In this document: piece by piece, positions 1,520 to 14,426 of the stretch
Numbering within the stretch: the stretch's first letter is position 1
How the letters are laid out: each line of letters starts with the position of its first letter
Origin: Sphingobacterium sp. HMA12
Lineage (GTDB): Bacteria; Bacteroidota; Bacteroidia; Sphingobacteriales; Sphingobacteriaceae
Length of the DNA stretch: 64,000 bases
NCBI RefSeq assembly: GCF_002933815.1
Contig: NZ_BEYR01000001.1
Location: 2,783,765 to 2,847,764 of the forward strand
Direction of reading: 5' to 3'
Translations under genes and position numbers: made by a program
Notes under the pieces: generated by a model
Database searches by the model: none
Told to the model about the DNA's origin: nothing
The model's input: only the letters and a program-made list of their open reading frames with translations

Positions 1520-2161
1520 TTAACTTAATGTGAGTTCACCAATGTATTCGCTTGACGAGGTTTTCACACCATCCCGGTGTCCTGTAAATACCCATCCCAC
1601 GATTGTATCTCCAGCATATATCGACGGAAAAGTCAATGTCAATGTTTCGTCATCTCGCGTTGCCGATTCCATCAAATTAAAATATTTCTTATCTTTATTA
1701 TAGACCAGAAGAATCACAGAGTCATCGTTGTATCCCATGAGGTCACTTGTAGATTTCATCCACGTCAATGTGATTTCCTGGGGTGCACTTTCTGTCCATT
1801 GTGGGACAAAAAGATTTGCCAAGGCCCCTCTACTGATGCGAACCCTGCTGTAATCGATCTCAAAGTCAGGATATATCCCAGTGATCGCAAATTTGAGCAC
1901 ATCACGCAACGCCTGGTTGTACCCTGTCGATTTACCCTGTTGTACATCAGAGTAGCCCAGGTTCAAGAGTTCCTTTAACGGCCCTAAAAAAGCCGTCGAT
2001 AATGCAAACTTCTCACGCTGTGCAAGTTGCTTTAACGAAGCTGGCTTATTGGTCGGCCTCGCCACCGACCTAACATAATCAACTGAACGCCAATTACTTC
2101 CTACGATATTACCCACTTTACCACTGTATGCGCCGTGGATACCTTTTAAAAATGTTGCCAT
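1520..2161 (-). CDS. DUF6266 family protein
   Basis: A 213-residue protein without a signal peptide. The N-terminal block (GIHGAYSGKVGNIVGSNWR, then a VDYVRS-like stretch and PASLKQLAQREKF) matches my recollection of the DUF6266 family, common and often multi-copy in Sphingobacteriaceae. The C-terminal half (about 100-213) is beta-rich and Ig-like, with LTWMKS, VILLVYN and DTIVGWVFTGH strands. Function is unknown. It is the first gene of the four-gene minus-strand cassette ending with the hydrolase and lipoprotein, and a repeat-rich spacer lies upstream. A structural or phage-derived surface role is inference. Confidence 0.65.
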   Translation of the reverse strand: MATFLKGIHGAYSGKVGNIVGSNWRSVDYVRSVARPTNKPASLKQLAQREKFALSTAFLGPLKELLNLGYSDVQQGKSTGYNQALRDVLKFAITGIYPDFEIDYSRVRISRGALANLFVPQWTESAPQEITLTWMKSTSDLMGYNDDSVILLVYNKDKKYFNLMESATRDDETLTLTFPSIYAGDTIVGWVFTGHRDGVKTSSSEYIGELTLS

Positions 2162-2604: not shown

Positions 2605-2898
2605 CTAATTCAGGCCACCCCTTTCACGATATTTTCGCTTCACTAATAGCGATTGGATATCATCCCGACGATGATAATGCTTTCCTCCGATAATAATTGG
2701 GTCTAACCATTTTCGGTCGATCCACCGATAATAGGTACTATGAACTATTCCAAAGAGAGACTGTACTTCTTTGGATGTCAATAGGTCTTCAGCCTGGAGC
2801 TTTTCTTTTTGGGGTAAAACGCCTCCATTTAATAGCTTTTCCAACATATTTTTAATTGCTTCAATCAGGAGTAATAATCGGTCAAATCTTTTCATCAT
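2605..2898 (-). CDS. Helix-turn-helix (MerR/excisionase-like) protein
   Basis: A 97-residue DNA-binding protein. Residues about 42-92 form a winged HTH of the excisionase (HTH_17) type: LTSKEVQSLFG, then STYYRWIDRKWLDPIIIGGKHYHRRDDIQSLL. The N-terminal 40 residues look helical. Such proteins are directionality factors of mobile elements or small activators. No integrase is nearby, so an excision role cannot be shown. The repeat-rich spacer immediately downstream is a candidate target. Confidence 0.65.
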   Translation of the reverse strand: MMKRFDRLLLLIEAIKNMLEKLLNGGVLPQKEKLQAEDLLTSKEVQSLFGIVHSTYYRWIDRKWLDPIIIGGKHYHRRDDIQSLLVKRKYRERGGLN

Positions 2899-2962: not shown

Positions 2963-3727
2963 TTAGCATCTGTTCTTTTTACGGTATCTGCCGATGCTGT
3001 CTTTAAAGCGGTTCCGATAAGTTTTCCCGATCGGCACAAACACATCGGTACCCTTGATCACAATATGATCTATAGAATAGTGCTCTACATACGCCATATT
3101 AACCAAATAACTTCGGTGTACACGTACAAATTGTTTTTTATCCAATAGACTTTCCAATAAGTCCATTGTGATATTTCCATTTTTAGTAAAATACATCTTG
3201 TTTCCCAGCCTGTTTGTATTCTCCTTGTAAAAACACATTGTTTTATCCTCAATAACCGCTAGCATCATACGGTCGGTATTTACCTGAATGTGATAGCCAG
3301 CAGATTTTGATGTCTTTATATCTAAAACATTATCATTCAGGTCAATGAAATCTTCGGGAACATCAACGAATGCCTTAACCCTTTCTATAGTTTCATTAAA
3401 GGCCGCTCTTCCAATTGTTTTACGGATAAATGCCGATTGATAAGGCGATGTTTCATAGATATATTCAGGGTGATTGGAACAGACGATGACTTGGGGCATC
3501 ACCTTTAGCGCTTCCAGGAACTGTACGCCATTCAGTGGCTGCATGTTCATATCCAATATTAGTATATCTACCTCCTGATGCTCCATCAGGCTTAATGCCT
3601 GCACCGGATCAGAAGTACAGAAAGCAATCTTTAAGCTGGGATCATCTGCTATATATCGCTGGATCAGAAGTAGTTCATCCAATTGATCATCTACTATTCC
3701 TATTCGATAAATCATACTAGTTTCCAT
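2963..3727 (-). CDS. LytTR-family response regulator
   Basis: A 254-residue regulator, if started at METSMIYRIG; the methionine at 3715 is an alternative, and the longer frame back to 3844 lies inside the kinase gene. The receiver domain spans about 6-125, with acidic pocket Asp13/Asp14 and phospho-acceptor Asp59 (LILDMN). The C-terminal LytTR DNA-binding domain spans about 150-250, with the family's FVRVHRSYLVN stretch. LytTR regulators bind direct repeats upstream of peptide, exopolysaccharide or cell-envelope genes. The start overlaps the kinase stop codon by a few bases, indicating translational coupling. Confidence 0.9.
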   Translation of the reverse strand: METSMIYRIGIVDDQLDELLLIQRYIADDPSLKIAFCTSDPVQALSLMEHQEVDILILDMNMQPLNGVQFLEALKVMPQVIVCSNHPEYIYETSPYQSAFIRKTIGRAAFNETIERVKAFVDVPEDFIDLNDNVLDIKTSKSAGYHIQVNTDRMMLAVIEDKTMCFYKENTNRLGNKMYFTKNGNITMDLLESLLDKKQFVRVHRSYLVNMAYVEHYSIDHIVIKGTDVFVPIGKTYRNRFKDSIGRYRKKNRC

Positions 3728-4778
3728 CCGCATTAAATTTATTCTGGACAATCCGCACAATAAATTCATTGCCAGATTCTTCAATATGTAATATGCCACA
3801 TTGCTCATCTTTGCACAGGCGTTGCCGCAAATTGCCAAGACCAAAATTGGAAGATTTCATCATCACGCGTTGCACAGGATCGAAAAGATTTCTACATTCA
3901 AATACAAACCCATAACGGCTCACGACCAAGCTAATAACGATCGCACCTTCAAATTGGAAAACGGCATACTTGATCGCATTTTCGAGGACCGTCACCAAAG
4001 ACATCGGAATAATATGATGACGACATTTTTCCCAGTCAGCATCCACCTGCAACTCCACTGTAGCATCGCCATATTTCCATTGCAGAATATCAGTCAAGTC
4101 AATAAAATAATCCCATTCAATCTTTAATGGGACAGCTTTCATCCCGGCAATATCCTGGTCCAGCACATAGCGTAGCACCTGGTTAAATCGGATTAACATA
4201 TCAGCGCTTTCCCTACCCTTTCCCATAAGCGATCTGCCGATGCCTGTAGATAAGATACTTTCAACAAAATGCGGGTTGATATCACGCAACGAAAGCTGAT
4301 AACGCAAATTGTCAATTTCATGTTTTGCATTGCTATTATCAGCTTCCAATAAAGATTGTTTGAATTTACGCTTTCTAAAAAAAACATTGCCTATGGTAAA
4401 CAATAGAATGGAACTAAAACTTGAGCCCACTCTTAGTTTAAACTGTACCGCATCAAACTCTGAATTTATCTTAAAAAGAAAAATGCCTACAAGGGGATAG
4501 AAATCATATATGACCCATTTCGAAAAAGGAATAAAGGTATACAAGACAAAAAGAAAAAGTAAGGTTCCGATACCACGTTTTGACCAAGATGAACTTATGA
4601 CCAACCTTAGATTAAGGTCCAAAAACTTAAAATAGAGCACAAATAACAACATAATACCGATGATCTGCATGACATTTAGCAGTCGTTGATAACGTAACAG
4701 ATTTCCGATGATCAAGATTAGTACAATGCTAAAAAATAATATAATTGGCGATCGATATCTCTTTAAAATCTTAATCAT
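3717..4778 (-). CDS. LytS-type sensor histidine kinase
   Basis: A 353-residue inner-membrane kinase. The N-terminal 135 residues contain about four helices and no large periplasmic domain. A short coiled segment (about 140-165) leads to the His_kinase (PF06580) domain, with the phospho-acceptor in INPHFVESIL (His170) and the ATP-binding N-box in VLENAIKYA (Asn267). The usual NPHFLFN motif is altered to NPHFVES. It is the partner of the LytTR regulator just downstream. The acyltransferase gene ends 69 bp upstream on the same strand, and the peptide-like gene lies beyond that, which suggests a signal-sensing locus. Confidence 0.9.
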   Translation of the reverse strand: MIKILKRYRSPIILFFSIVLILIIGNLLRYQRLLNVMQIIGIMLLFVLYFKFLDLNLRLVISSSWSKRGIGTLLFLFVLYTFIPFSKWVIYDFYPLVGIFLFKINSEFDAVQFKLRVGSSFSSILLFTIGNVFFRKRKFKQSLLEADNSNAKHEIDNLRYQLSLRDINPHFVESILSTGIGRSLMGKGRESADMLIRFNQVLRYVLDQDIAGMKAVPLKIEWDYFIDLTDILQWKYGDATVELQVDADWEKCRHHIIPMSLVTVLENAIKYAVFQFEGAIVISLVVSRYGFVFECRNLFDPVQRVMMKSSNFGLGNLRQRLCKDEQCGILHIEESGNEFIVRIVQNKFNADGN

Positions 4779-4847
4779 AATTGGTTATATGATAGGTTTA
4801 CAATTATAAATTTACCATTATTTTATTTAATAAATACAATAATAACC

Positions 4848-5714
4848 TTAAATAACAAAAATATTATAATTCAATCTATCTAAGATAAAAGTTTTCGACT
4901 CTACATGAAACGAAAAGGTATGCTCTGGATTCAGTAATTCGATCGATGCATCTTCAGAGTCATTTAAACACAGCATTCCATTGCGATGCAAGTAGTCCCA
5001 ACAGGCCCAGTCTGCCCATTTACCGTTTAACCTATCCGATAGTAAGTCAAAAAGTTGTTGCATGCAGTCCTGAATATAGTCAGTCCGTCCTACTTCAAAA
5101 GTAGGATAGATAGGCTGTTGAATAGCTATGTTGACATTATCGCCGGCTAGCTTATCCAGTATCGGATATATTGGTACCTGTAGTAAATGGGAAATAAAAG
5201 CAATCCCACGTCGCACATAAAGCTTCTCATTAAAAAAAGATACGGGCACAAGAAGACCATCTATATCTCCAGTTCCAAGATTGCCGTCCGCAAATACCAG
5301 AATATGTCTACCTGAATATAGCGCTCTCTTCATTTGAAGCACGATATATTTGTCTTCGGCAAAGAGAAAATCAAAATGCCTATCTGCTACTTCAAGAGAT
5401 GTCCGGTGCAGATTTAAGCTATGTCTGTACTTTTGATAAACTTTTTTGCTTATCAAAATATCAAAATCTATTCCCGCTCCAGCGAGATAGAGTGGCAAAA
5501 GCTCATGTTGTCCTAGATGGAAGCCAGTCAATATTCCAGCTCGCGTCATCTTATCAAGGCCTGTTATCGTAGCGCCATAAAGCGCTGGATTACGTGGGAT
5601 ATGATACTTTTTAAATATTGAGTACAGCGCATTATGCTCTTCCCAGGGTATTGACGGAACATAGTGATGTAAGTTGGCGCTGAAAAACGCATAGTTCATG
5701 TGGTCATTAGTCAT
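4848..5714 (-). CDS. LpxL/HtrB-like acyltransferase
   Basis: About 288 residues from MTNDH; starts at 5699 and 5735 are also open. The lysophospholipid-acyltransferase core is recognisable: HLGQHE gives the HX4E catalytic pair. The second block has the order seen in lipid A late acyltransferases: VFADG, then LLVPVSFFNE, then VRRGIAFISHLLQVPIYPI, the equivalent of the family's G-x-A-x-LA-x-x-TGAPVxP block. It lacks the usual N-terminal membrane helix and is somewhat short. The substrate is unknown: lipid A, another lipid, or the 46-residue peptide encoded just upstream. A hairpin with a T-run lies between the peptide stop and this start, so expression may depend on read-through. Confidence 0.7.
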   Translation of the reverse strand: MTNDHMNYAFFSANLHHYVPSIPWEEHNALYSIFKKYHIPRNPALYGATITGLDKMTRAGILTGFHLGQHELLPLYLAGAGIDFDILISKKVYQKYRHSLNLHRTSLEVADRHFDFLFAEDKYIVLQMKRALYSGRHILVFADGNLGTGDIDGLLVPVSFFNEKLYVRRGIAFISHLLQVPIYPILDKLAGDNVNIAIQQPIYPTFEVGRTDYIQDCMQQLFDLLSDRLNGKWADWACWDYLHRNGMLCLNDSEDASIELLNPEHTFSFHVESKTFILDRLNYNIFVI

Positions 5715-5732
5715 ATATAATTGGATTAAAAA

Positions 5733-5760
5733 CAATCCCCGGCGTCGTAGCCGGAGATTG
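5733..5760 (-). terminator. Terminator or attenuator hairpin
   Basis: In the minus-strand RNA an 11-bp stem (CAATCTCCGGC with GCCGGGGATTG, one G-U pair) closes a 6-base loop and is followed at once by TTTTTAATCC. It sits between the 46-codon gene and the acyltransferase start. It should end most transcripts after the small gene and leave read-through for the downstream genes. Confidence 0.75.
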
Positions 5761-5780
5761 CAGATTAGTAGTTGCAGTTG

Positions 5781-5921
5781 TCAGAAGGCCCAGATTTCGC
5801 ACTTATCCGCTTCATCTTCACCAGCTCGTGAAAAGATAGCCAGAAAGTCTGCCAATCTCACGACCTGCAGCGCTGTGCTATTATTCAGGACCAAAATCTT
5901 ATTCGATACTATTTCAGTCAT
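5781..5921 (-). CDS. 46-residue peptide, possible precursor or signal
   Basis: An open frame of 46 codons begins MTEIVSNKILVLNN and ends DKCEIWAF. The middle is hydrophobic and amphipathic, with an acidic segment GEDEAD before the C-terminal Cys-Glu-Ile-Trp-Ala-Phe. It is followed within about 20 bp by a strong hairpin and T-run. Short gene, own terminator, then acyltransferase and LytTR two-component system on the same strand resembles peptide-pheromone or modified-peptide loci. I recognise no precursor family, and only position and the terminator support coding. It could be a chance frame. Confidence 0.45.
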   Translation of the reverse strand: MTEIVSNKILVLNNSTALQVVRLADFLAIFSRAGEDEADKCEIWAF

Positions 5922-6198
5922 TGTTTACAATTTTTCAATTCTAAAAGTCCAAAAATCGCAGGGTTGGAAATCCCAGACTCTTGTCGACAGAGTTTGCTGA
6001 ATCAGTACTACAAATATCCAATCCAATACACCGAAAAGGCGAATAAAAGCGTACTCAGCCTATTTTTGCGTCAACTTTCCTATTCACGCCAGTTTTGCCA
6101 TTCGCGCGACGTTCGCGCAAAGAATCGGCTGTCTACGGTTAAATTCTTCCAATAGTTATCGCTGCTTCGATATTGCTCTTTTTATTAAAAATCTGACC

Positions 6199-7200
6199 AT
6201 GCAAAAAAGCCTATTTATTGCGCTGGAGGAACACTATACTTCGACCAGCAACACCTCAGCCTTACGCCATATACTGGGCGTACAGCTTATGCAGATCGCC
6301 AAACCATCCTATTTTCAGAACGAACATGGAGATGAGGCGCTACTACAGGAGTTTGATGGGTTCTTGAGCTATCTGACCTCCTTGCATCGCTATGGACAAC
6401 AAAGAAATAGCATCAGACTACGGATCGAGCGGGGCGACCTGCATGCTTTCTATGTATTGGAGTCTGCTGAGCCCATTCTATTAATAAAAGATCATCAACG
6501 GTTTGATCTTCATCCCAAACGGGGTTGTTACTGTTATCTTCCGCCAGGAGAATATATCTTGGAATTTCCTAAAGGGCATACCCAACTATTTTCCTTTTAC
6601 TTCCGTGGCAAGATGTTCCGTAAAAACCATGAGCGACATTTCAATTTTTTGCACGAACTCGTTGCCGCTTTTCGCAATAAGAGTACACGACCATTTCAGA
6701 GCATTGATTTCAGAATTGGCCCACGTACCCGAGTGATGATCGGGCGCCTACTCGAACATTTGCGGTTTATCGATCTGGATACCGAGCTATTTCTACATCG
6801 GCAGATCCTCGAACTGCTCAAGCTCAGTAAAGAAAAAATTTTTGAGGAGTATGAAAAGGTTTATGACGGGAGTATCCTAGCGCTCCAGGTACGGGAAGAG
6901 ATACGGCGGAGCATAGCGGTAGATGGCCAGGAATTTAGGCTGGATGAGCTGCCACCCCTATTCAAAAAAAGCCAGCAATATATTGGACGGGTATACAAGG
7001 CTGTATTTGGCCATTCACTAAGGCAATGCCGTAAAGACTTTTTAGTCGAATTGGCAAAGGAAAACCTGATCAGATTATCCAATAGCACACAAGCTGCTTA
7101 CGCCTGTAGCTTTAACAGTGTGCAGCAATTTGATAAGTTTTTTAAGAACACTACCGGAATGACACCCTCTGAATACTTAGAAAAAATTCGGGGAGAGTAG
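6199..7200 (+). CDS. AraC-family transcriptional regulator
   Basis: A 333-residue regulator. An N-terminal ligand or oligomerisation region (about 1-220) precedes a C-terminal AraC DNA-binding domain (about 235-333), ending in the family signature FNSVQQFDKFFKNTTGMTPSEYLEKIR. It is divergent from the peptide/acyltransferase genes across 277 bp that must hold both promoters, and lies upstream of the MauE-like and DUF6520-like genes on the same strand. It may control either side; no operator is obvious. Confidence 0.88.
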   Translation: MQKSLFIALEEHYTSTSNTSALRHILGVQLMQIAKPSYFQNEHGDEALLQEFDGFLSYLTSLHRYGQQRNSIRLRIERGDLHAFYVLESAEPILLIKDHQRFDLHPKRGCYCYLPPGEYILEFPKGHTQLFSFYFRGKMFRKNHERHFNFLHELVAAFRNKSTRPFQSIDFRIGPRTRVMIGRLLEHLRFIDLDTELFLHRQILELLKLSKEKIFEEYEKVYDGSILALQVREEIRRSIAVDGQEFRLDELPPLFKKSQQYIGRVYKAVFGHSLRQCRKDFLVELAKENLIRLSNSTQAAYACSFNSVQQFDKFFKNTTGMTPSEYLEKIRGE

Positions 7201-7306
7201 CTTGAGGTTTCGATTTCGACAACAGTGCTGTTTCTAGTTTGACACGTCTTAGCTCCTTTGCTGACCTAACTTTGCTTTACACAGTATGTAAGTAAAAGAC
7301 AGCAAC

Positions 7307-7894
7307 ATGAACATTAAAGCCAAACATATCATTACACAAAGTATCCGCATCTTTCTGATGGTATTTTGGCTCTATGTGTCTGTCGACAAATTGCTCGAGC
7401 TGGATGCTTTCCACGCGGCTCTACAGCGCCAGCCACTCGCTACGTTTCTGACTGACCTATTGTATTGGCTTCTACCATTGACTGAGCTGCTTCTTGGCTT
7501 ATTGTTTATCGGAAGATATAGACATTACGCTTACTTACTTTCCGCTATTCTACTGTTTTCATTTAGTGTATTCATTGCTCTGGGACTCGTGGGTTTCTAT
7601 CCAAACCGACCATGCGGCTGTGCCTCTGTTTTCAGCCGCTTATCCTGGTCTTGGCACTTGGTCGTCAATCTGATTCTGTTGATCCTGTCCATACTGGGAT
7701 GGTACTTGACTGGCCCAACCAGCCCCATGCACAAAGAGGAACAACACGGCAAAGAAAACGCCAAAGATCCCCTCCTTTCTATCGTACTTTTGGTGCCGCT
7801 ATACCACTTCCTAATGGTGGTCAGGAAGCGATTTCCAGAGAAATTTGCCTTGTTCCCGGCTTGGGCCGGTATAGCTTTAAATTATGACACGTGA
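7307..7894 (+). CDS. MauE/DoxX-like membrane protein
   Basis: A 195-residue protein with about four membrane helices in the first 150 residues (about 12-30, 48-68, 74-96, 112-134) and a cytoplasmic tail. The pattern resembles MauE/DoxX-type proteins, some of which pass electrons to periplasmic thiol systems. A Cys-Gly-Cys pair (Cys103, Cys105 in RPCGCASVF) at the third helix is the likely redox site. The next gene encodes a small exported protein with two cysteines, and a TlpA-like thioredoxin lies in the convergent operon, so a thiol-redox role is a reasonable inference. Confidence 0.65.
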   Translation: MNIKAKHIITQSIRIFLMVFWLYVSVDKLLELDAFHAALQRQPLATFLTDLLYWLLPLTELLLGLLFIGRYRHYAYLLSAILLFSFSVFIALGLVGFYPNRPCGCASVFSRLSWSWHLVVNLILLILSILGWYLTGPTSPMHKEEQHGKENAKDPLLSIVLLVPLYHFLMVVRKRFPEKFALFPAWAGIALNYDT

Positions 7895-8056
7895 GCTGTG
7901 CCACGTAAAAAGCACAGCCGAGATACTTATTGATAGAGACATCTCGTTAAAGCAAAGTCTTGATCGCTATATATTCAACCAAAGTTTTTTGAGGTAATCT
8001 TTTTTTGATCAAACGCAATATAAAAAACTTGATTGCGTAAAATAAAAGGCCATAAA

Positions 8057-8389
8057 ATGAGAACTATACAGCTCATAAAAAATAATGCAATGCTTTTGAT
8101 CGCAGGCTTAGCAATCATAGGTTTCAGTTCATTTAAGATGATCGACAAATTCGAAGCAAAATCAGGTGCAGTTACCAAATGGTATCCAGTTGCTGCAAAC
8201 GGGCAAACTATCGACACATCAAATCCGCAAGATAATCCCCCCGCAGATAGCGAATGTCAAGAAGAAAATCCTGGTAATACCTGTTTTATTAAAATGACAA
8301 CTACAGCTTCTGTTCCGACGTCAGTGAATGATGCACTATCAGATCCTACAGTTTCTGAGATTGAACAATATCATCGCGATGTAGAATAA
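8057..8389 (+). CDS. Small exported protein, DUF6520-like
   Basis: A 110-residue protein starting at MRTIQLIKNN; an in-frame ATG at 8033 is less likely. It has a hydrophobic export signal (about 10-30), then a WYPVAANGQTID segment and a C-terminal part with two cysteines (SEC and NTC). This resembles the DUF6520-type small proteins that Bacteroidota encode beside MauE-like genes. Function is unknown; the two cysteines could form a disulfide. A clear terminator follows within 10 bp. Confidence 0.6.
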   Translation: MRTIQLIKNNAMLLIAGLAIIGFSSFKMIDKFEAKSGAVTKWYPVAANGQTIDTSNPQDNPPADSECQEENPGNTCFIKMTTTASVPTSVNDALSDPTVSEIEQYHRDVE

Positions 8390-8396
8390 AAATGTG

Positions 8397-8423
8397 AAAG
8401 GCCCGATCTAACTCGGGCCTTTT
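8397..8423. terminator. Bidirectional terminator
   Basis: AAAGGCCCGA and TCGGGCCTTT form a perfect 10-bp stem with a 6-base loop, with A- and T-runs on both sides. It lies between the convergent DUF6520-like and SusD-like genes and can serve both. Confidence 0.9.
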
Positions 8424-8426
8424 ACT

Positions 8427-9791
8427 TTAACGTTCATTTTGTGCTATTCCTGTTATCCGAATCACCTCGTTCGGAATCGGAAACACATAACGCCTACTTT
8501 GAGGCTCCAAAGTATAATCTTTACCATCAATAGACCTTTTTAACATTACCTGCGTATCGCTATGCCGATTATATCGTTTAAGATCCATCCATCTAATACC
8601 TCGAAAGACCAGCTCTCGACGCCTTTCATCCCTTAGGTATGCTAATAGATTATTCTTGGCAGTTGGTACATCCTGCTCCGTATTATATCTAAATTTTGCA
8701 AACTGTTTGAAAGTTTCAATTGCATCCTGAAGCTTACCCTGCTGTGCCAAAGCTTCAGCTTTATTTAGCCATATTTCATTAACCGCTAATCCCATAAAAA
8801 AGGAAGCTGATCCATTATAAGAGCCCTTGTATTGAAAATCACTACCAGAAGCTTTGAAAAACAAGCTTTTCCTCAGATCACCTTCGTTGTAAAGTGAATA
8901 TAGTTCTTTTGACACATTTAACCTTGTAGCGTTTAAAATAGTATAAATGGTCATATTGGTATGGAAAATCACTTCCTTATTAAACAGTCCAAAGGAATAA
9001 TTTAACGAGGTAGAAAGTGAAGCATAATCAAGGAGATCTGATTGCAATGAAAGACTTTCCGATGCCGTATTTTCTGCCTGAGGATAATTCTCCATAAACA
9101 GGTAAAACCGAGAAAGAAAGGCCAATGCAGCAGCCTTTGATGGCCGTGTTTTTACCAGAGGCAGCCCCTGCAAGAGATCTACGCTTTCCTTCATGTCGTT
9201 TTCAATTTGTGTCAGCGTTTCCCGTACCGTACTCCTAGTTGTTGGCAAAGTAATATCGGAGGCCAATCTTAAGGGGATTCCCAATTCGGTATCCCATGTC
9301 TTTGGATCGTATAGTGCGCCAAAACAATTGTATAATTCCCAGAAAGACCACGCACGGATAAACAATGCACTTCCCTTGATATCGTTAAATTCCTGAACAT
9401 CATAAGGCTCTGTTACAGCCTTCAGACGCTCCAATATCAAATTACAATATAAGATCCGCTGGTAAGGAGCATTCCAATCATCTATCCCCTCAAAATTCCC
9501 ATAGATATCCGCAGCCCATGTATACATATTTTTTTGTTCGGCTCGAGATAAAGCCGCCCAAATATTCAGATTGACATAGTAGTCATCCGTAGACATTTCG
9601 GGCATCCCATATCCAGCCAGTTTACTGATGATGGACGAGTTATCCAATAGTGCCCTCAAATCCGTAAGCGTTGTTGGGATCGATCGGGCGCGATCAGGAA
9701 TTGCATCCAAGAAATCCTTTTTACAGGCATTTGTTATTAAGGTGAGCAAGCCAAACATGGTGTAGCAAGCAATACATTTTATTTTTTTCAT
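8427..9791 (-). CDS. SusD/RagB-family outer-membrane lipoprotein
   Basis: A 454-residue surface lipoprotein. The lipobox cysteine is Cys23 (LITNAC). The body follows the SusD plan: an N-terminal TPR-like helical region, then the C-terminal block DERRRELVFRGIRWMDLKRYN and a final PIPNEVIRITGI. SusD proteins form the lid over the SusC channel and bind the nutrient. It starts 11 bp downstream of susC, the usual partner order. The absence of carbohydrate-active enzymes and the presence of a TlpA-like gene upstream argue against a glycan locus. Confidence 0.92.
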   Translation of the reverse strand: MKKIKCIACYTMFGLLTLITNACKKDFLDAIPDRARSIPTTLTDLRALLDNSSIISKLAGYGMPEMSTDDYYVNLNIWAALSRAEQKNMYTWAADIYGNFEGIDDWNAPYQRILYCNLILERLKAVTEPYDVQEFNDIKGSALFIRAWSFWELYNCFGALYDPKTWDTELGIPLRLASDITLPTTRSTVRETLTQIENDMKESVDLLQGLPLVKTRPSKAAALAFLSRFYLFMENYPQAENTASESLSLQSDLLDYASLSTSLNYSFGLFNKEVIFHTNMTIYTILNATRLNVSKELYSLYNEGDLRKSLFFKASGSDFQYKGSYNGSASFFMGLAVNEIWLNKAEALAQQGKLQDAIETFKQFAKFRYNTEQDVPTAKNNLLAYLRDERRRELVFRGIRWMDLKRYNRHSDTQVMLKRSIDGKDYTLEPQSRRYVFPIPNEVIRITGIAQNER

Positions 9792-9802
9792 TATTCAAAT
9801 CA

Positions 9803-12800
9803 TTAAAAATCAATCTTCAAAAGCATTGACGCCCGTAAAGGGAGTGCATAAAAACTCAATGGCATATCGGGATCTATATGTTCCTTGGATTTGGACCAGA
9901 GTATCCCCAAGTTTTTTACATTGAAACTTAAATCTACCTTTTTAAACAGCCTGTTTTTCCAAGGAAAGGTATAGGCAAACTGAATATCCTCCATACGAAT
10001 ATTAGCGGCGGATGCTATTGTCTGTTCACTCATTTGATACACCATATCCCGCTGTGACATCGACGCTAGGTCTTTGGGTATACCCGGCACTGATGTATGG
10101 TTTTCGTCTCCCGATTGCTGCCAACGATCCACCATCTCAATGTGGCCCATCCAGTTGTTCAGTAAGCTATAGTAAGACAATGAGGGTCTACGATACACAT
10201 AGCCTGCTTTAAAACTCAGCAGAAAACTAACGTTAAACCTACCAGCAATATTAAATGAGTTTCGCCACGAACCGAACCATGTCGGCACTGTACTACCTGC
10301 ATACACAAGATCCGACAACTCCAGTCCCTGTAGGTAAGCTGCATAATTTTTGGAAACCGTACCATCAGTCAGGTAAACAACCGGATCTCCCTCATTATCC
10401 AGACCATTCCATTTGTAGCTATACAGATAATTTTGAGGCTTACCAACTTGAGGCGGTGAGAATACCTGCTCCTGACCAAGGTAAGTAGCAATAGCCCAGC
10501 CGTTCTGACCATCATCATATTGTGTGACTTTATTGTTTACATAGCTGAGAATCACATTGCCCGTCCAACTGAACTGATTACGCTTAATCGCCTGTACAGT
10601 CAGGTCAACATCAAGACCTCTGGTCAAAGCATTCGCATAATTAATCCGGTTCCGTAAAATTTGATTATCAATTCCTGTTGTCGGATCCACAATCGCATCA
10701 CCGATCAGGTCACGCCCCCATTTATTATAAAATTCAACCTGCCCGACAATCCTGCTGTTAAATAGACCGAAATCCAGCCCCAAATTAAGTGTTCTTATTT
10801 TCTCCCACCGTAAAGATGGATTACCTGTATTGGCAAGCGTACCACGAGTAAGGCCGTTAAAGGAATCATTGCCGTATGTAGCAATAGGATATGCCGTCAA
10901 TGTCTTATCCACATTTCCATTTTCGCCAATTGTAGCCCGTAGCTTTAAGGCTGAAAGCAGATCGCTTTTAAACCAATGCTCTGCTTTCACATTCCACATT
11001 AAACCAGTAGACCAAAGCGGAACGCGCTTTTGATTGAAGTTTACACCAAACAGATTACTTTGGTCTACACGTACGCTAGCTGTAGCAGTATACCGACGAT
11101 CAAAGGTGTAGCCCACATTGGCATAGTATGCCTCATATCGATCCGTTTTCAACATCGATCTACTATCAGGTGCAGGAATATATCCCCAATTTCCTTGCGG
11201 ACTCATCTGTACTGGATTTTTATAGTCAATTGATGATGCTCCCACCAACGTTTGATCGTTAATACCATACACGGTCATTGTCGGAGTCCCCTCGATGATA
11301 TTTTCATTCCTTTCTACTCCAGCAAATAGATTCAGCTGGTGAAGGTCCTCGAAATTACGGTCAAAAGAAAGGAAGAATCTAGTCGCATATCCCCTTTGCG
11401 AATCACTTGATGTATGAGATAGACCACCTTTCGGTATAGCACGCGTGCCGTCTGGTGAAGTATACTGATTAATCAGGTTTCTACTCTCATAAGAATTTGA
11501 TAAATAATATTTTCTCGATGCAGAGCTGCCTACCGTATATAATTGCTTAAATCCGATATCAAGACCGAAAGGAAATTTATAGCGCAAGCCTCCATTAAAT
11601 CGAAATGATAAATCACGGTCTCTGTTTTCCCGCCATAGATAATCCCGCTCAGGATAGAAGCGCCAATCAAGATAGCCATTTGATTCTGCCGATTCAATAT
11701 ACGGCAGACTATAACGCTTCTGGATGCCATATTCATCTCCAAAAGAAGCATATGGAAGAAGGTAGGATTTGCCTGTGGCAATGATATTGCTTATACCCAT
11801 GCCATCGTTTTTGATGACATTATGCATCACCTGCGTTTCGATATCCAGTGTCAACGCATCAGTCAGTCGGTAATCTATATTGGCGACGACATTGGTTTTA
11901 GCATTCGAATTATGGCGAATGGTAATTTGGTCCGCCTGATTCGCTATAGAAAAGTAATAAGAACCCTTCGCAAACCCACCGGTACTATTTATACCATATC
12001 GCAACAGAATGGGCACTTGGTATAATTCCTTACGCATCTCATTGACGAAATCCCTTTGCCGCATCACTGTAGTCCATGAATTTAAATCCGTTTCGAATAT
12101 TTTTCCATTTTTAAGATCAAATAACCGATCGACATACGGAGAGTTCAGTGTCCAGTCGTTCTGCTCATACCATCCTTTATCAAAGAAAGTCTTCTCCATG
12201 TCCATAAATGTACCCGCATTAATATGATAAGGTGATCTGTCAAAATTTGGTTTTGAAGCCGCTTCAAGTCCTGTATAAAACTGGAAACTTTGTGGTTTTT
12301 GACTTCCTTTTTTTGTTGTCAGCACGATCACACCGTTCCCAGCCCGTGCTCCCCAGATACTTGCCGCCGAGGCATCACGCAAAACCGAAACCGTGGCAAT
12401 ATCTTCCGGATTGATATCTGTGATACTTCCATTAAAAGGGAAATTATCGAGGATAATCAGTGGTGAGCCGTCACCAAATATGGTGGTCATTCCCCGCAAT
12501 CGCAGCTTGGGAGTTCCCTCGCCCTCTCCATTATTATCCTTACGGATAAAAGCTAGTCCCGTGGTTATATTTTCCAGTCTACTGAGAAGGTTCGCTGAAT
12601 TGGAACGCTCCAATTGTTCCTTTCCTAACACCTGAAATGAGCCTGCCGACCGTTCTTTGGATATCGACTGATAACCTGTTTGTACCAATACCTCTTCGAT
12701 CTTTCTGACAAGCGGTTGAAGTACAATGGTCCTCTCCGCCAAAAGCCGACTGCCAGCAAGCGTATCCGTACGATAGTTTAAATGCGACACCACATAGCGA

Positions 12801-12997
12801 TCGGCAAGCGACACTGTTATCAAAGCAAATCCATTCTGATCCGACATCACGGCATTACTGCTCCCCAACATCTTTAGGGAAGCACCTTTGATTGGTCTTG
12901 ATTCGTCATCTGCGATCCGGATATTTAACTTTGTCTGTGCAAGACTACTTAAACAGATTATTTGCAGGAGCAAAAAGATTAGAGCATTAATTTTCAT
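9803..12997 (-). CDS. SusC/RagA TonB-dependent receptor
   Basis: About 1064 residues from MKINALIFLL at 12997, with a signal peptide ending near SSLAQ. A carboxypeptidase-regulatory-like domain (about 25-100) precedes a TonB box/plug region (IEEVLVQTGYQSISKERSAGSFQVLG, given as two blocks around residue 125) and a 22-strand barrel to the C-terminus. It imports a ligand across the outer membrane using TonB energy. No STN domain is present. Its start overlaps the end of the TlpA-like gene by 11 bp, so the three genes TlpA-SusC-SusD form an operon. Confidence 0.93.
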   Translation of the reverse strand: MKINALIFLLLQIICLSSLAQTKLNIRIADDESRPIKGASLKMLGSSNAVMSDQNGFALITVSLADRYVVSHLNYRTDTLAGSRLLAERTIVLQPLVRKIEEVLVQTGYQSISKERSAGSFQVLGKEQLERSNSANLLSRLENITTGLAFIRKDNNGEGEGTPKLRLRGMTTIFGDGSPLIILDNFPFNGSITDINPEDIATVSVLRDASAASIWGARAGNGVIVLTTKKGSQKPQSFQFYTGLEAASKPNFDRSPYHINAGTFMDMEKTFFDKGWYEQNDWTLNSPYVDRLFDLKNGKIFETDLNSWTTVMRQRDFVNEMRKELYQVPILLRYGINSTGGFAKGSYYFSIANQADQITIRHNSNAKTNVVANIDYRLTDALTLDIETQVMHNVIKNDGMGISNIIATGKSYLLPYASFGDEYGIQKRYSLPYIESAESNGYLDWRFYPERDYLWRENRDRDLSFRFNGGLRYKFPFGLDIGFKQLYTVGSSASRKYYLSNSYESRNLINQYTSPDGTRAIPKGGLSHTSSDSQRGYATRFFLSFDRNFEDLHQLNLFAGVERNENIIEGTPTMTVYGINDQTLVGASSIDYKNPVQMSPQGNWGYIPAPDSRSMLKTDRYEAYYANVGYTFDRRYTATASVRVDQSNLFGVNFNQKRVPLWSTGLMWNVKAEHWFKSDLLSALKLRATIGENGNVDKTLTAYPIATYGNDSFNGLTRGTLANTGNPSLRWEKIRTLNLGLDFGLFNSRIVGQVEFYNKWGRDLIGDAIVDPTTGIDNQILRNRINYANALTRGLDVDLTVQAIKRNQFSWTGNVILSYVNNKVTQYDDGQNGWAIATYLGQEQVFSPPQVGKPQNYLYSYKWNGLDNEGDPVVYLTDGTVSKNYAAYLQGLELSDLVYAGSTVPTWFGSWRNSFNIAGRFNVSFLLSFKAGYVYRRPSLSYYSLLNNWMGHIEMVDRWQQSGDENHTSVPGIPKDLASMSQRDMVYQMSEQTIASAANIRMEDIQFAYTFPWKNRLFKKVDLSFNVKNLGILWSKSKEHIDPDMPLSFYALPLRASMLLKIDF

Positions 12998-14426
12998 CCG
13001 ATACCTCCTCTCCAACTGTTGCGGCTTGTGTGAGATGAATACTGAGCAAAGGATGCTCACAAAGCTCTACATGGATTCCATGCTTTTTCAGTATAGCGAA
13101 TACAGTGGGCAGATCCTGTAATGAACAGGCAAAGTCGATGCTGTACAGTTGCTCTGTATAGGCTTTATCCCATACGATCGGTATAGGATTATGCTTGTTT
13201 TGTTCTGCAATAATGCCAAGGATATTTTCTAGTGGAATATTGACAAATCGAGCCTTTCGTGTATTGGGATCAAAAAAGTTTTCCGTTTTTAATCCTTTCA
13301 ATGTTTTGTTTGACGGATAAACAGTAATCAAGTATTGTTTTCTCAGCATAGGCTGCAACGAGAAGGACACACCAAACTTTTCCAGTAAAAATGAACGAAG
13401 ATCTTCCCTGAATATCGTCTTCGGATCAAGATCAGTTGTACTATCTATATTGATAAATTCATAACAATAATAATGATCCTTTTTCCATTGAAAATTCCAC
13501 TTAGATCGCTCTACAATCGGCATACTCGCAAACTTCTCATAATCGTAGCACAAGCGTTCTCTAACCGAATCAGGAATATCATACACCAATCTGTTGAATC
13601 GGCCGTAATGCGGTATATCTCTGCTATAAAGTTTGTAGAGCATATCTTCAATAGCTCCATTGAGATAGCGTAAGTAAGATTTAGTTGTTTTCAATCGACC
13701 AATATGCCAATTGAACGAGCGATAAAAAGCCCGGTTTGAACCATATTGAGTAATGACCTTTTCCTTGAGGAAATTCTTTAAATTGATACTGTCTTCATAA
13801 TCGGCGAATGCAGGCTTTTTAAATTCTGCTATTGTTTTTCTTTGAATAGCCTTTTGGATATTGCTATCCGTAATGTAATCGCTGGAATTTGACAACAGGA
13901 GCTTACCATCCGCTATCCATATCGAATGCGGTAAGGAGTGGCGCGGAAAGTACCTCTTTAAAATCTGATCTTCATAGACAGTAAAGACTGGATTATTGCT
14001 TCTAGCACTAAAGGTCTGTATCTTTTCTTTGGATTCATCTGTTACAGCAAGTATCGCGATGTCTTGACCATATATGGATCGGTATCCCTCTAGTTTGGGG
14101 AGCATCTTAATGCAAGGAGCACACCATGTCGCCCAGAAATCAATGATAATCAGTTTTTTGCTTTTAAAATTTGAGAGCTTAATCGTATTATTTCCCTTGT
14201 GGTCATTTATAACTGTCAACGGCAAATTCCATAGGTCTGTAGGAATAGAATCCCCTACTTTGAGCGATTTAATAGAAAGCCCATCGGCCCCGCTGTCCTT
14301 GCGGGGCGTCTGAGCTGATAAACTAAACATAGAAACTAGAAAGTATAAGATGACGAGTACCGCGATCTTTAATATCTGAATATTTAGCAATACGCTGTTA
14401 TTGGATTGTAGTTTTAATCTTTTCAT
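12987..14426 (-). CDS. TlpA-like thioredoxin with DUF3738-like C-terminus
   Basis: A 479-residue exported thiol-disulfide protein. A signal helix lies at about 18-38. The thioredoxin fold (about 58-200) carries WCAPC (Cys102, Cys105). After a helical linker, residues about 330-470 resemble DUF3738 (TIGR03435): LRSFLLEKFGVSF, a PIVWDK segment in place of the usual PVVDKTGL, then TVFAILKKHGIHVEL and a final IHL strand. The domain call is from memory of the family pattern. The gene overlaps susC by 11 bp and follows a 122-codon gene by 4 bp. It probably acts on disulfides in the periplasm; what it contributes to SusCD uptake is unknown. Confidence 0.8.
   Translation of the reverse strand: MKRLKLQSNNSVLLNIQILKIAVLVILYFLVSMFSLSAQTPRKDSGADGLSIKSLKVGDSIPTDLWNLPLTVINDHKGNNTIKLSNFKSKKLIIIDFWATWCAPCIKMLPKLEGYRSIYGQDIAILAVTDESKEKIQTFSARSNNPVFTVYEDQILKRYFPRHSLPHSIWIADGKLLLSNSSDYITDSNIQKAIQRKTIAEFKKPAFADYEDSINLKNFLKEKVITQYGSNRAFYRSFNWHIGRLKTTKSYLRYLNGAIEDMLYKLYSRDIPHYGRFNRLVYDIPDSVRERLCYDYEKFASMPIVERSKWNFQWKKDHYYCYEFINIDSTTDLDPKTIFREDLRSFLLEKFGVSFSLQPMLRKQYLITVYPSNKTLKGLKTENFFDPNTRKARFVNIPLENILGIIAEQNKHNPIPIVWDKAYTEQLYSIDFACSLQDLPTVFAILKKHGIHVELCEHPLLSIHLTQAATVGEEVSDEN

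Follow-up and report, generated by a model that had tools for sequence, protein, structure and literature searches.

What does a gene of 46 codons do beside an acyltransferase and a two-component system? The question is raised by a 64,000-nucleotide stretch of the genome of Sphingobacterium sp. HMA12 (contig NZ_BEYR01000001.1, positions 2,783,765 to 2,847,764; hereafter the window). A preliminary description had recognised on one strand a 46-codon gene with its own terminator, an LpxL-like acyltransferase (AT), a LytS-type histidine kinase (HK) and a LytTR response regulator (RR), and had suggested a lipid-modified peptide signal or product. All four frames could be located (Table 1). The answer that we favour, and to which we give slightly better than an even chance, is that the locus is a self-contained peptide signalling cassette of the Agr/ComX kind, in which the AT would acylate the peptide and a membrane sensor would read the product.

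The peptide is 85% identical to its counterparts in S. prati (L034) and in a Sphingobacterium metagenome-assembled genome (L033), which also carry the closest relatives of the AT. Nonsynonymous divergence is far below synonymous divergence (dN 0.074, dS 0.579; dN/dS about 0.13 against S. prati), and 14 of the 20 nucleotide changes in the frame fall on third codon positions. Judged by these substitutions, the 46-codon frame is a real gene under purifying selection. It is present in one copy in the genome, and its product, which has no match in a Pfam scan, consists of an acidic stretch followed by the C-terminal residues K-C-E-I-W-A-F.

Of 199 genomes sampled around that of the window, 72 contain homologues of the AT, at one to five matches per genome; 68 of the 72 belong to the same genus, the window's own genome included. 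Our main set of 43 loci is composed of 40 AT loci, two named loci (stretches up to 16 kb) and the window, and includes the near-duplicate pairs L033/L034, L039/L040, L057/L060 and L042/L047. Addition of L083 and L084 gives a set of 45. A C-terminal rule, composed after the 43 loci had been viewed, was satisfied at 41 of them compared with 18 of 328 other gene starts within the same stretches. It requires an open reading frame (ORF) of 28-110 codons that ends -70 to 260 nt before the AT and has a tail made up of C, one of thirteen listed residues, I/V/F and then 1-14 residues to the end. A stricter rule (C.[IFV].{2,6}$) selects 35 of the 43 AT loci and 9 of the 328 controls. The loosest one, any Cys 3-9 residues from the end, selects 37 AT loci but also 84 controls and was not counted as evidence. 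With the C-terminal rule fixed beforehand, 16 of 20 previously unseen AT loci (the hold-out) were positive. Two of the failures, L135 and L147, have C-D-V and C-W-I tails that are visible by eye, and the count was kept at 16.

Inspection of the 43 loci gives a fuller picture of the peptide, although the resulting counts are not a test, since the residue class was widened (W added, longer tail) and one ORF per locus was chosen via hand-made rules. A short peptide lies just upstream of the AT at all 43 loci and mostly ends in K/R-C-x-I. The residue before the Cys is K or R in 34 peptides and the one after it is P in 24. Position +2 is I, F or V throughout (Ile in 38), and the tail runs exactly five residues past the Cys in 28. 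We regard the partnership of peptide and AT as highly probable.

The gene order recurs as well. HK is present at 43 of the 45 loci and RR at 42, directly after the AT in nearly all of them; at L061 two genes intervene. At all 20 hold-out loci, both lie downstream of the AT on the same strand. All 43 kinases keep the H-box His, and the phosphoacceptor Asp is found in 42 of 42 regulators. A simple hydropathy scan of the hydrophobic HK N-terminus shows three clear segments, to which a fourth can probably be added by eye, and no evident extracytoplasmic domain. Of 861 pairs, not independent of each other, 690 show more variation in this part than in the catalytic one. The preliminary description had advised looking in relatives for the order peptide, acyltransferase and LytTR system with a conserved peptide C-terminus, and this pattern is present. 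It would have abandoned its proposal had the small frame not been conserved, or had the acyltransferase stood without the peptide in all relatives; the frame is conserved and the peptide accompanies the enzyme.

A second family, f58, carries a related arrangement. The AT occurs in 7 of 392 genomes of a phylum-wide sample and in 65 of 200 genomes of f58. Of 29 AT loci of f58, 25 have a short Cys peptide whose end lies 83-111 nt before the modelled AT start, and the same 25 encode, in a divergent gene, a membrane protein that ends in a LytTR domain (PF04397; 2.7e-22 for L083 and 7.7e-19 for L082, the two that were scanned). The remaining four loci have neither the LytTR gene nor the peptide. The f58 peptides extend well beyond the Cys. 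Two families therefore couple a Cys peptide and an AT to membrane LytTR signalling through different architectures.

What kind of enzyme is the AT? Its description as LpxL-like is weakly supported: matches to PF03279 (E up to 1, best 3.6e-6) were obtained for 13 of 35 homologues, and the window AT has no Pfam match. The genome encodes a separate PF03279 LpxL, whose comparison with the AT profile (A1) was weak (E 0.0063, probability 6, 91 columns), and a search with the AT profile matched no PDB sequence. H64 and D141 are invariant in all 96 homologues (sets of 35, 20, 25 and 16).

Since remote homologues of the AT sit in clusters for ribosomally synthesised and post-translationally modified peptides (RiPPs), the enzyme looks like a peptide maturase and is a candidate peptide acylase. 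L085 and L087 combine the homologue with a radical SAM/SPASM protein and a daptide-type M50 protease, and L087 has two near-identical precursors (..EERLEMVQL..NGCCS..) at about 7100-7900, flanked by a TIGR04463-like radical SAM gene on one side and the AT on the other. BLASTP of the window AT against that of L087 gave nothing significant; the two are linked by the A1 profile (8.1e-19). In L086, the neighbours are SagB, SagC-like and YcaO genes and an M50 protease, which also accompanies the AT homologue in L154, L157 and L162. Five repeated small ORFs ending in ..AAYTSCVID/CVLD.. lie beside a daptide-type M50 protease and the AT in L156 (3479-4852) and are probable RiPP precursors. L159 (1918-12494) has the order ketosynthase, FabZ, FabG, AT, LanB, AMP ligase and phosphopantetheinyl transferase; L151, L152, L153, L155 and L158 have similar-looking genes, L159 being the one that was Pfam-scanned. 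We take clusters of the L159 type to resemble those of lipolanthines; as a side observation, this lanthipeptide-like cluster with its own ketosynthases is a candidate lipolanthine-like pathway in f58. Like a RiPP biosynthetic cassette, the locus in the window has a short precursor gene beside a gene of a maturase family that recurs in RiPP clusters.

Between the peptide gene and the AT lies a hairpin of 12 pairs with a T tail. It is the first of 9 listed in a 9-kb scan, where chance alone would give 7.8 such sites. The terminator that the preliminary description had assigned to the small gene is nevertheless supported, because the hairpin is kept in both near relatives and because a hairpin with T tail is enriched at this position across loci (25 of 40, versus 60 of 400 mononucleotide shuffles). 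An Rfam scan found no leader, only a sub-threshold mir-237 match elsewhere.

We propose the following scheme. The small gene would encode a ribosomal precursor, the constant C-terminus of which (K/R-C-x-I-x-x-hydrophobic) would be the functional part. The AT, from a RiPP-associated branch of the LpxL superfamily, would modify the precursor, most likely by acylating the Cys thiol; N-acylation once the leader has been removed is a possible alternative. The product would leave the cell by some export route, and the kinase next door, the N-terminus of which is a bundle of hydrophobic segments, would sense it in the membrane. The LytTR regulator would then alter transcription; its targets might include the cassette itself and the adjoining SusC/SusD-MauE-DUF6520 module. 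Of the lipid-modified peptide signal first suggested, peptide signalling stands as the best reading and the relatives in RiPP clusters argue for a maturase, whereas we infer the lipidation, the export and the sensing by the kinase.

Table 1. Features of the cassette and its surroundings in the window
Feature	Position	Strand	Basis or occurrence
Precursor peptide gene, 46 codons	ATG 5921 to stop 5781	-	Conserved frame, dN/dS, Cys-x-[IFV] tail at AT loci
Hairpin resembling an intrinsic terminator (5761-5732), with T tail, in the peptide-AT gap	5727..5761	-	Hairpin scan, conservation, shuffles
AT, 288-aa LpxL-superfamily-like acyltransferase, proposed peptide acylase	4848..5714	-	H64/D141 invariant; start TTG 5735 or ATG 5714, end 4848
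HK, LytS-type histidine kinase, proposed receptor	3717..4778	-	PF06580 (2.3e-6)
RR, LytTR response regulator	2963..3715	-	PF00072 (4.3e-11) and PF04397 (1.8e-9); also listed as 293-aa ORF from an earlier TTG start
Small HTH_17-like protein, downstream	2605..2898	-	16/45 loci
DUF6266 protein (PF19781)	1520..2161	-	18/45 loci
AraC-family regulator, divergent from peptide	6199..7200	+	26/45 loci
MauE-like membrane protein	7307..7894	+	28/45 loci
Small DUF6520-like protein, associated module	8033..8389	+	Position and likeness; window copy without Pfam match
SusD-like lipoprotein, possible importer partner	8427..9791	-	41/45 loci
SusC-like TonB-dependent receptor	9803..12997	-	41/45 loci
Thioredoxin-like (TlpA-type) protein	12987..14426	-	24/45 loci

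The SusCD-MauE-DUF6520 module was considered as part of the cassette core and rejected. In this genome the module stands without an AT at no fewer than four MauE loci, and it is therefore treated as associated and not as specific. The recurrent module of SusC-SusD-thioredoxin and DUF6520-like-MauE-AraC genes (window 6199-14426; L126-L129) occurs several times in the genome, some copies accompanied by the peptide cassette and others not. In two of these (L128 and L129; G000 C7 and C3, first 12 kb), near-identical SusD, DUF6520-like and MauE genes occupy identical positions at two contig starts, which suggests that a repeat has been collapsed or that contig ends underwent a recent duplication. 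The divergent gene is AraC-type or Crp-like, the latter at 13 of the 45 loci. Repeated GCGCGAA(T)-like words in the peptide-AraC intergenic region (window about 6083-6120) are conserved in L033 and L034 and are a possible, putative regulator site. Import of the signal by SusCD is speculation. Downstream of the cassette, a GC-rich stretch of TCGAC/CGAAGC-like word repeats (window about 2400-2600) resembles a repetitive element.

Several observations weigh against the signalling scheme, the after-the-fact origin of the C-terminal rule among them. Two hold-out loci, L140 and L148, have no recognisable Cys peptide despite the presence of kinase and regulator, and the candidate peptide before the AT of L148 ends in KKNDLVWL. 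Conversely, L041 keeps peptide and AT and has no HK or RR. No leader protease or exporter was identified for the cassette. The acid of the LpxL HX4E motif, present as E in the window copy, is kept in 5 of the 96 AT homologues; since it is mostly lost, the chemistry of the AT may differ from classic O-acylation. AlphaFold2 predictions of the AT (three sequences) gave no usable model, with a predicted local distance difference test score (pLDDT) of 41 and a predicted template modelling score (pTM) of 0.34. Finally, the peptide adjoining the AT of L159 has no Cys, so that the acceptor may differ between subfamilies and the Cys need not be the acceptor. The peptide-like ORF of L148 is of separate interest as a possible variant acceptor or a decayed copy.

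Could the product be something other than a signal? A lipopeptide RiPP with an antimicrobial or a metal- or nutrient-scavenging function, the production of which the kinase-LytTR pair merely controls on another cue and which SusC/SusD recovers, is unlikely in our view but the most probable of the alternatives. It accords with the varied RiPP clusters of the AT relatives, some of them of the lanthipeptide-plus-fatty-acid type, and with the SusC and SusD genes that adjoin 41 of the 45 loci. However, the SusCD-MauE-DUF6520 module also occurs without the AT in the same genome, the partner that the two families have in common is a LytTR sensor in the membrane, and the tabulated gene families of the 45 loci include no recurrent immunity gene, dedicated exporter or additional maturase. 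We favour a signal over an antibiotic because the peptide-AT-sensor core lacks recurring immunity or export genes. An improbable variant keeps the pheromone without the lipid: the AT would be a protein of LpxL fold, inactive or put to a new use, that binds the peptide, escorts it or cyclises it to a thiolactone-like product, as AgrB does. Loss of the catalytic acid in 91 of 96 homologues speaks for this, as does the tail of Cys plus five residues, which resembles autoinducing peptide sequences. On the other hand, the invariant H64 and D141 are as in a working enzyme, clustering of AT relatives with ketosynthase, FabZ and AMP ligase suggests real acyl transfer, and most of the peptides have no tail on which AgrB-type proteolysis could act to drive thiolactone formation.

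The short ORF might instead be a regulatory leader, with attenuation, set by its Cys codon, at the terminator behind it, and the AT a membrane-lipid enzyme under the control of the two-component system. The terminator directly 3' of the ORF and the Cys codon near its end would fit, but we consider this very improbable: conservation reaches beyond the Cys codon (the I/F/V at +2, the fixed tail length, the low dN/dS), the f58 peptides run well past the Cys, and Rfam yields no leader. Both LytTR pairs and acyltransferases are frequent in Bacteroidota, and a housekeeping lipid acyltransferase could in principle lie by chance beside a two-component system that has nothing to do with it and an ORF that is no gene. 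This last explanation has a negligible likelihood and is refuted by synteny and conservation, given the same order at nearly all of the 45 loci and at every hold-out locus and a separate PF03279 LpxL in the genome. PADLOC and PHROGs returned nothing useful. Defence and housekeeping readings were dropped.

The signalling cassette may be part of something larger, which we put forward tentatively and with more doubt than belief: a widespread, multi-copy peptide quorum sensing of Bacteroidota, in which an LpxL-like enzyme would S-acylate the C-terminal Cys of a ribosomal peptide, membrane-embedded LytTR proteins would sense it (a kinase pair in Sphingobacterium, a one-component factor in f58) and the same enzyme family would lipidate further RiPPs, among them lanthipeptides that have fatty-acid genes of their own. 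It is chiefly in Gram-positive bacteria that peptide quorum sensing is known. The conserved cassette, of which a Sphingobacterium genome often has several divergent copies, would provide Bacteroidota with a peptide signalling language and would point to a new family of RiPP-acylating enzymes open to direct mining. How Gram-negative cells can send a modified peptide through the outer membrane, and perceive one from beyond it, also becomes a testable question.

The preliminary description knew of no described system with this set of genes, and a full-text literature search judged by title and abstract likewise gave no counterpart, although most subscription papers are outside its scope and an earlier description is possible. 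The Agr system of Firmicutes (AgrB-AgrD-AgrC-AgrA) consists of a short peptide with a key Cys near its C-terminus, a modifying enzyme, a membrane-embedded kinase and a LytTR regulator. The cassette resembles it in the key Cys followed by hydrophobic residues, seen by inspection at all 43 loci, in the dedicated enzyme, in the membrane kinase with its LytTR partner and in the operon logic. It differs in its phylum, Bacteroidota, in its PF06580-type kinase, in the lack of an AgrB-cleaved, AgrD-like tail in most members, and in the enzyme, since no AgrB-type protein was found and none of the 35 AT homologues matches AgrB. As in other LytS/LytTR two-component systems, the phosphorylatable His and Asp are kept. 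In ComQXPA of Bacillus, the prenyl transferase ComQ modifies a Trp of the precursor and ComA is of the NarL type. The two systems share a small precursor and its modification near the C-terminus (here a proposed lipidation) by a transferase encoded beside kinase and regulator, but the polyprenyl transferase family of ComQ and the NarL-type family of ComA were not found in the cassette. From LpxL/HtrB (PF03279), to which 13 of 35 members show distant sequence similarity and with which the invariant His and Asp are shared, the AT is set apart by the absence of the HX4E acid from 91 of 96 homologues and by a peptide gene as its genomic partner. Lipolanthines and selidamides are lipidated RiPPs made with GNAT-type enzymes, and nostolysamides are reportedly lipidated RiPPs as well; the enzymes there are others, whereas here an LpxL-like AT is combined with a LytTR sensor. 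The proposed S-acylated C-terminal Cys peptide would be a bacterial counterpart of lipidated CaaX-type pheromones. In Bacteroidota, one report describes diacylglycerol (DAG)-RiPPs, in which RiPPs of multinuclear non-heme iron-dependent oxidative enzymes (MNIOs) are lipidated through the lipoprotein pathway, with SusC/SusD nearby (PMC12636315). The ribosomal peptide with a lipid (proposed here) and the SusC/SusD neighbours are shared with the cassette; the enzyme and the peptide are different, and the cassette has an LpxL-like AT and a LytTR sensor.

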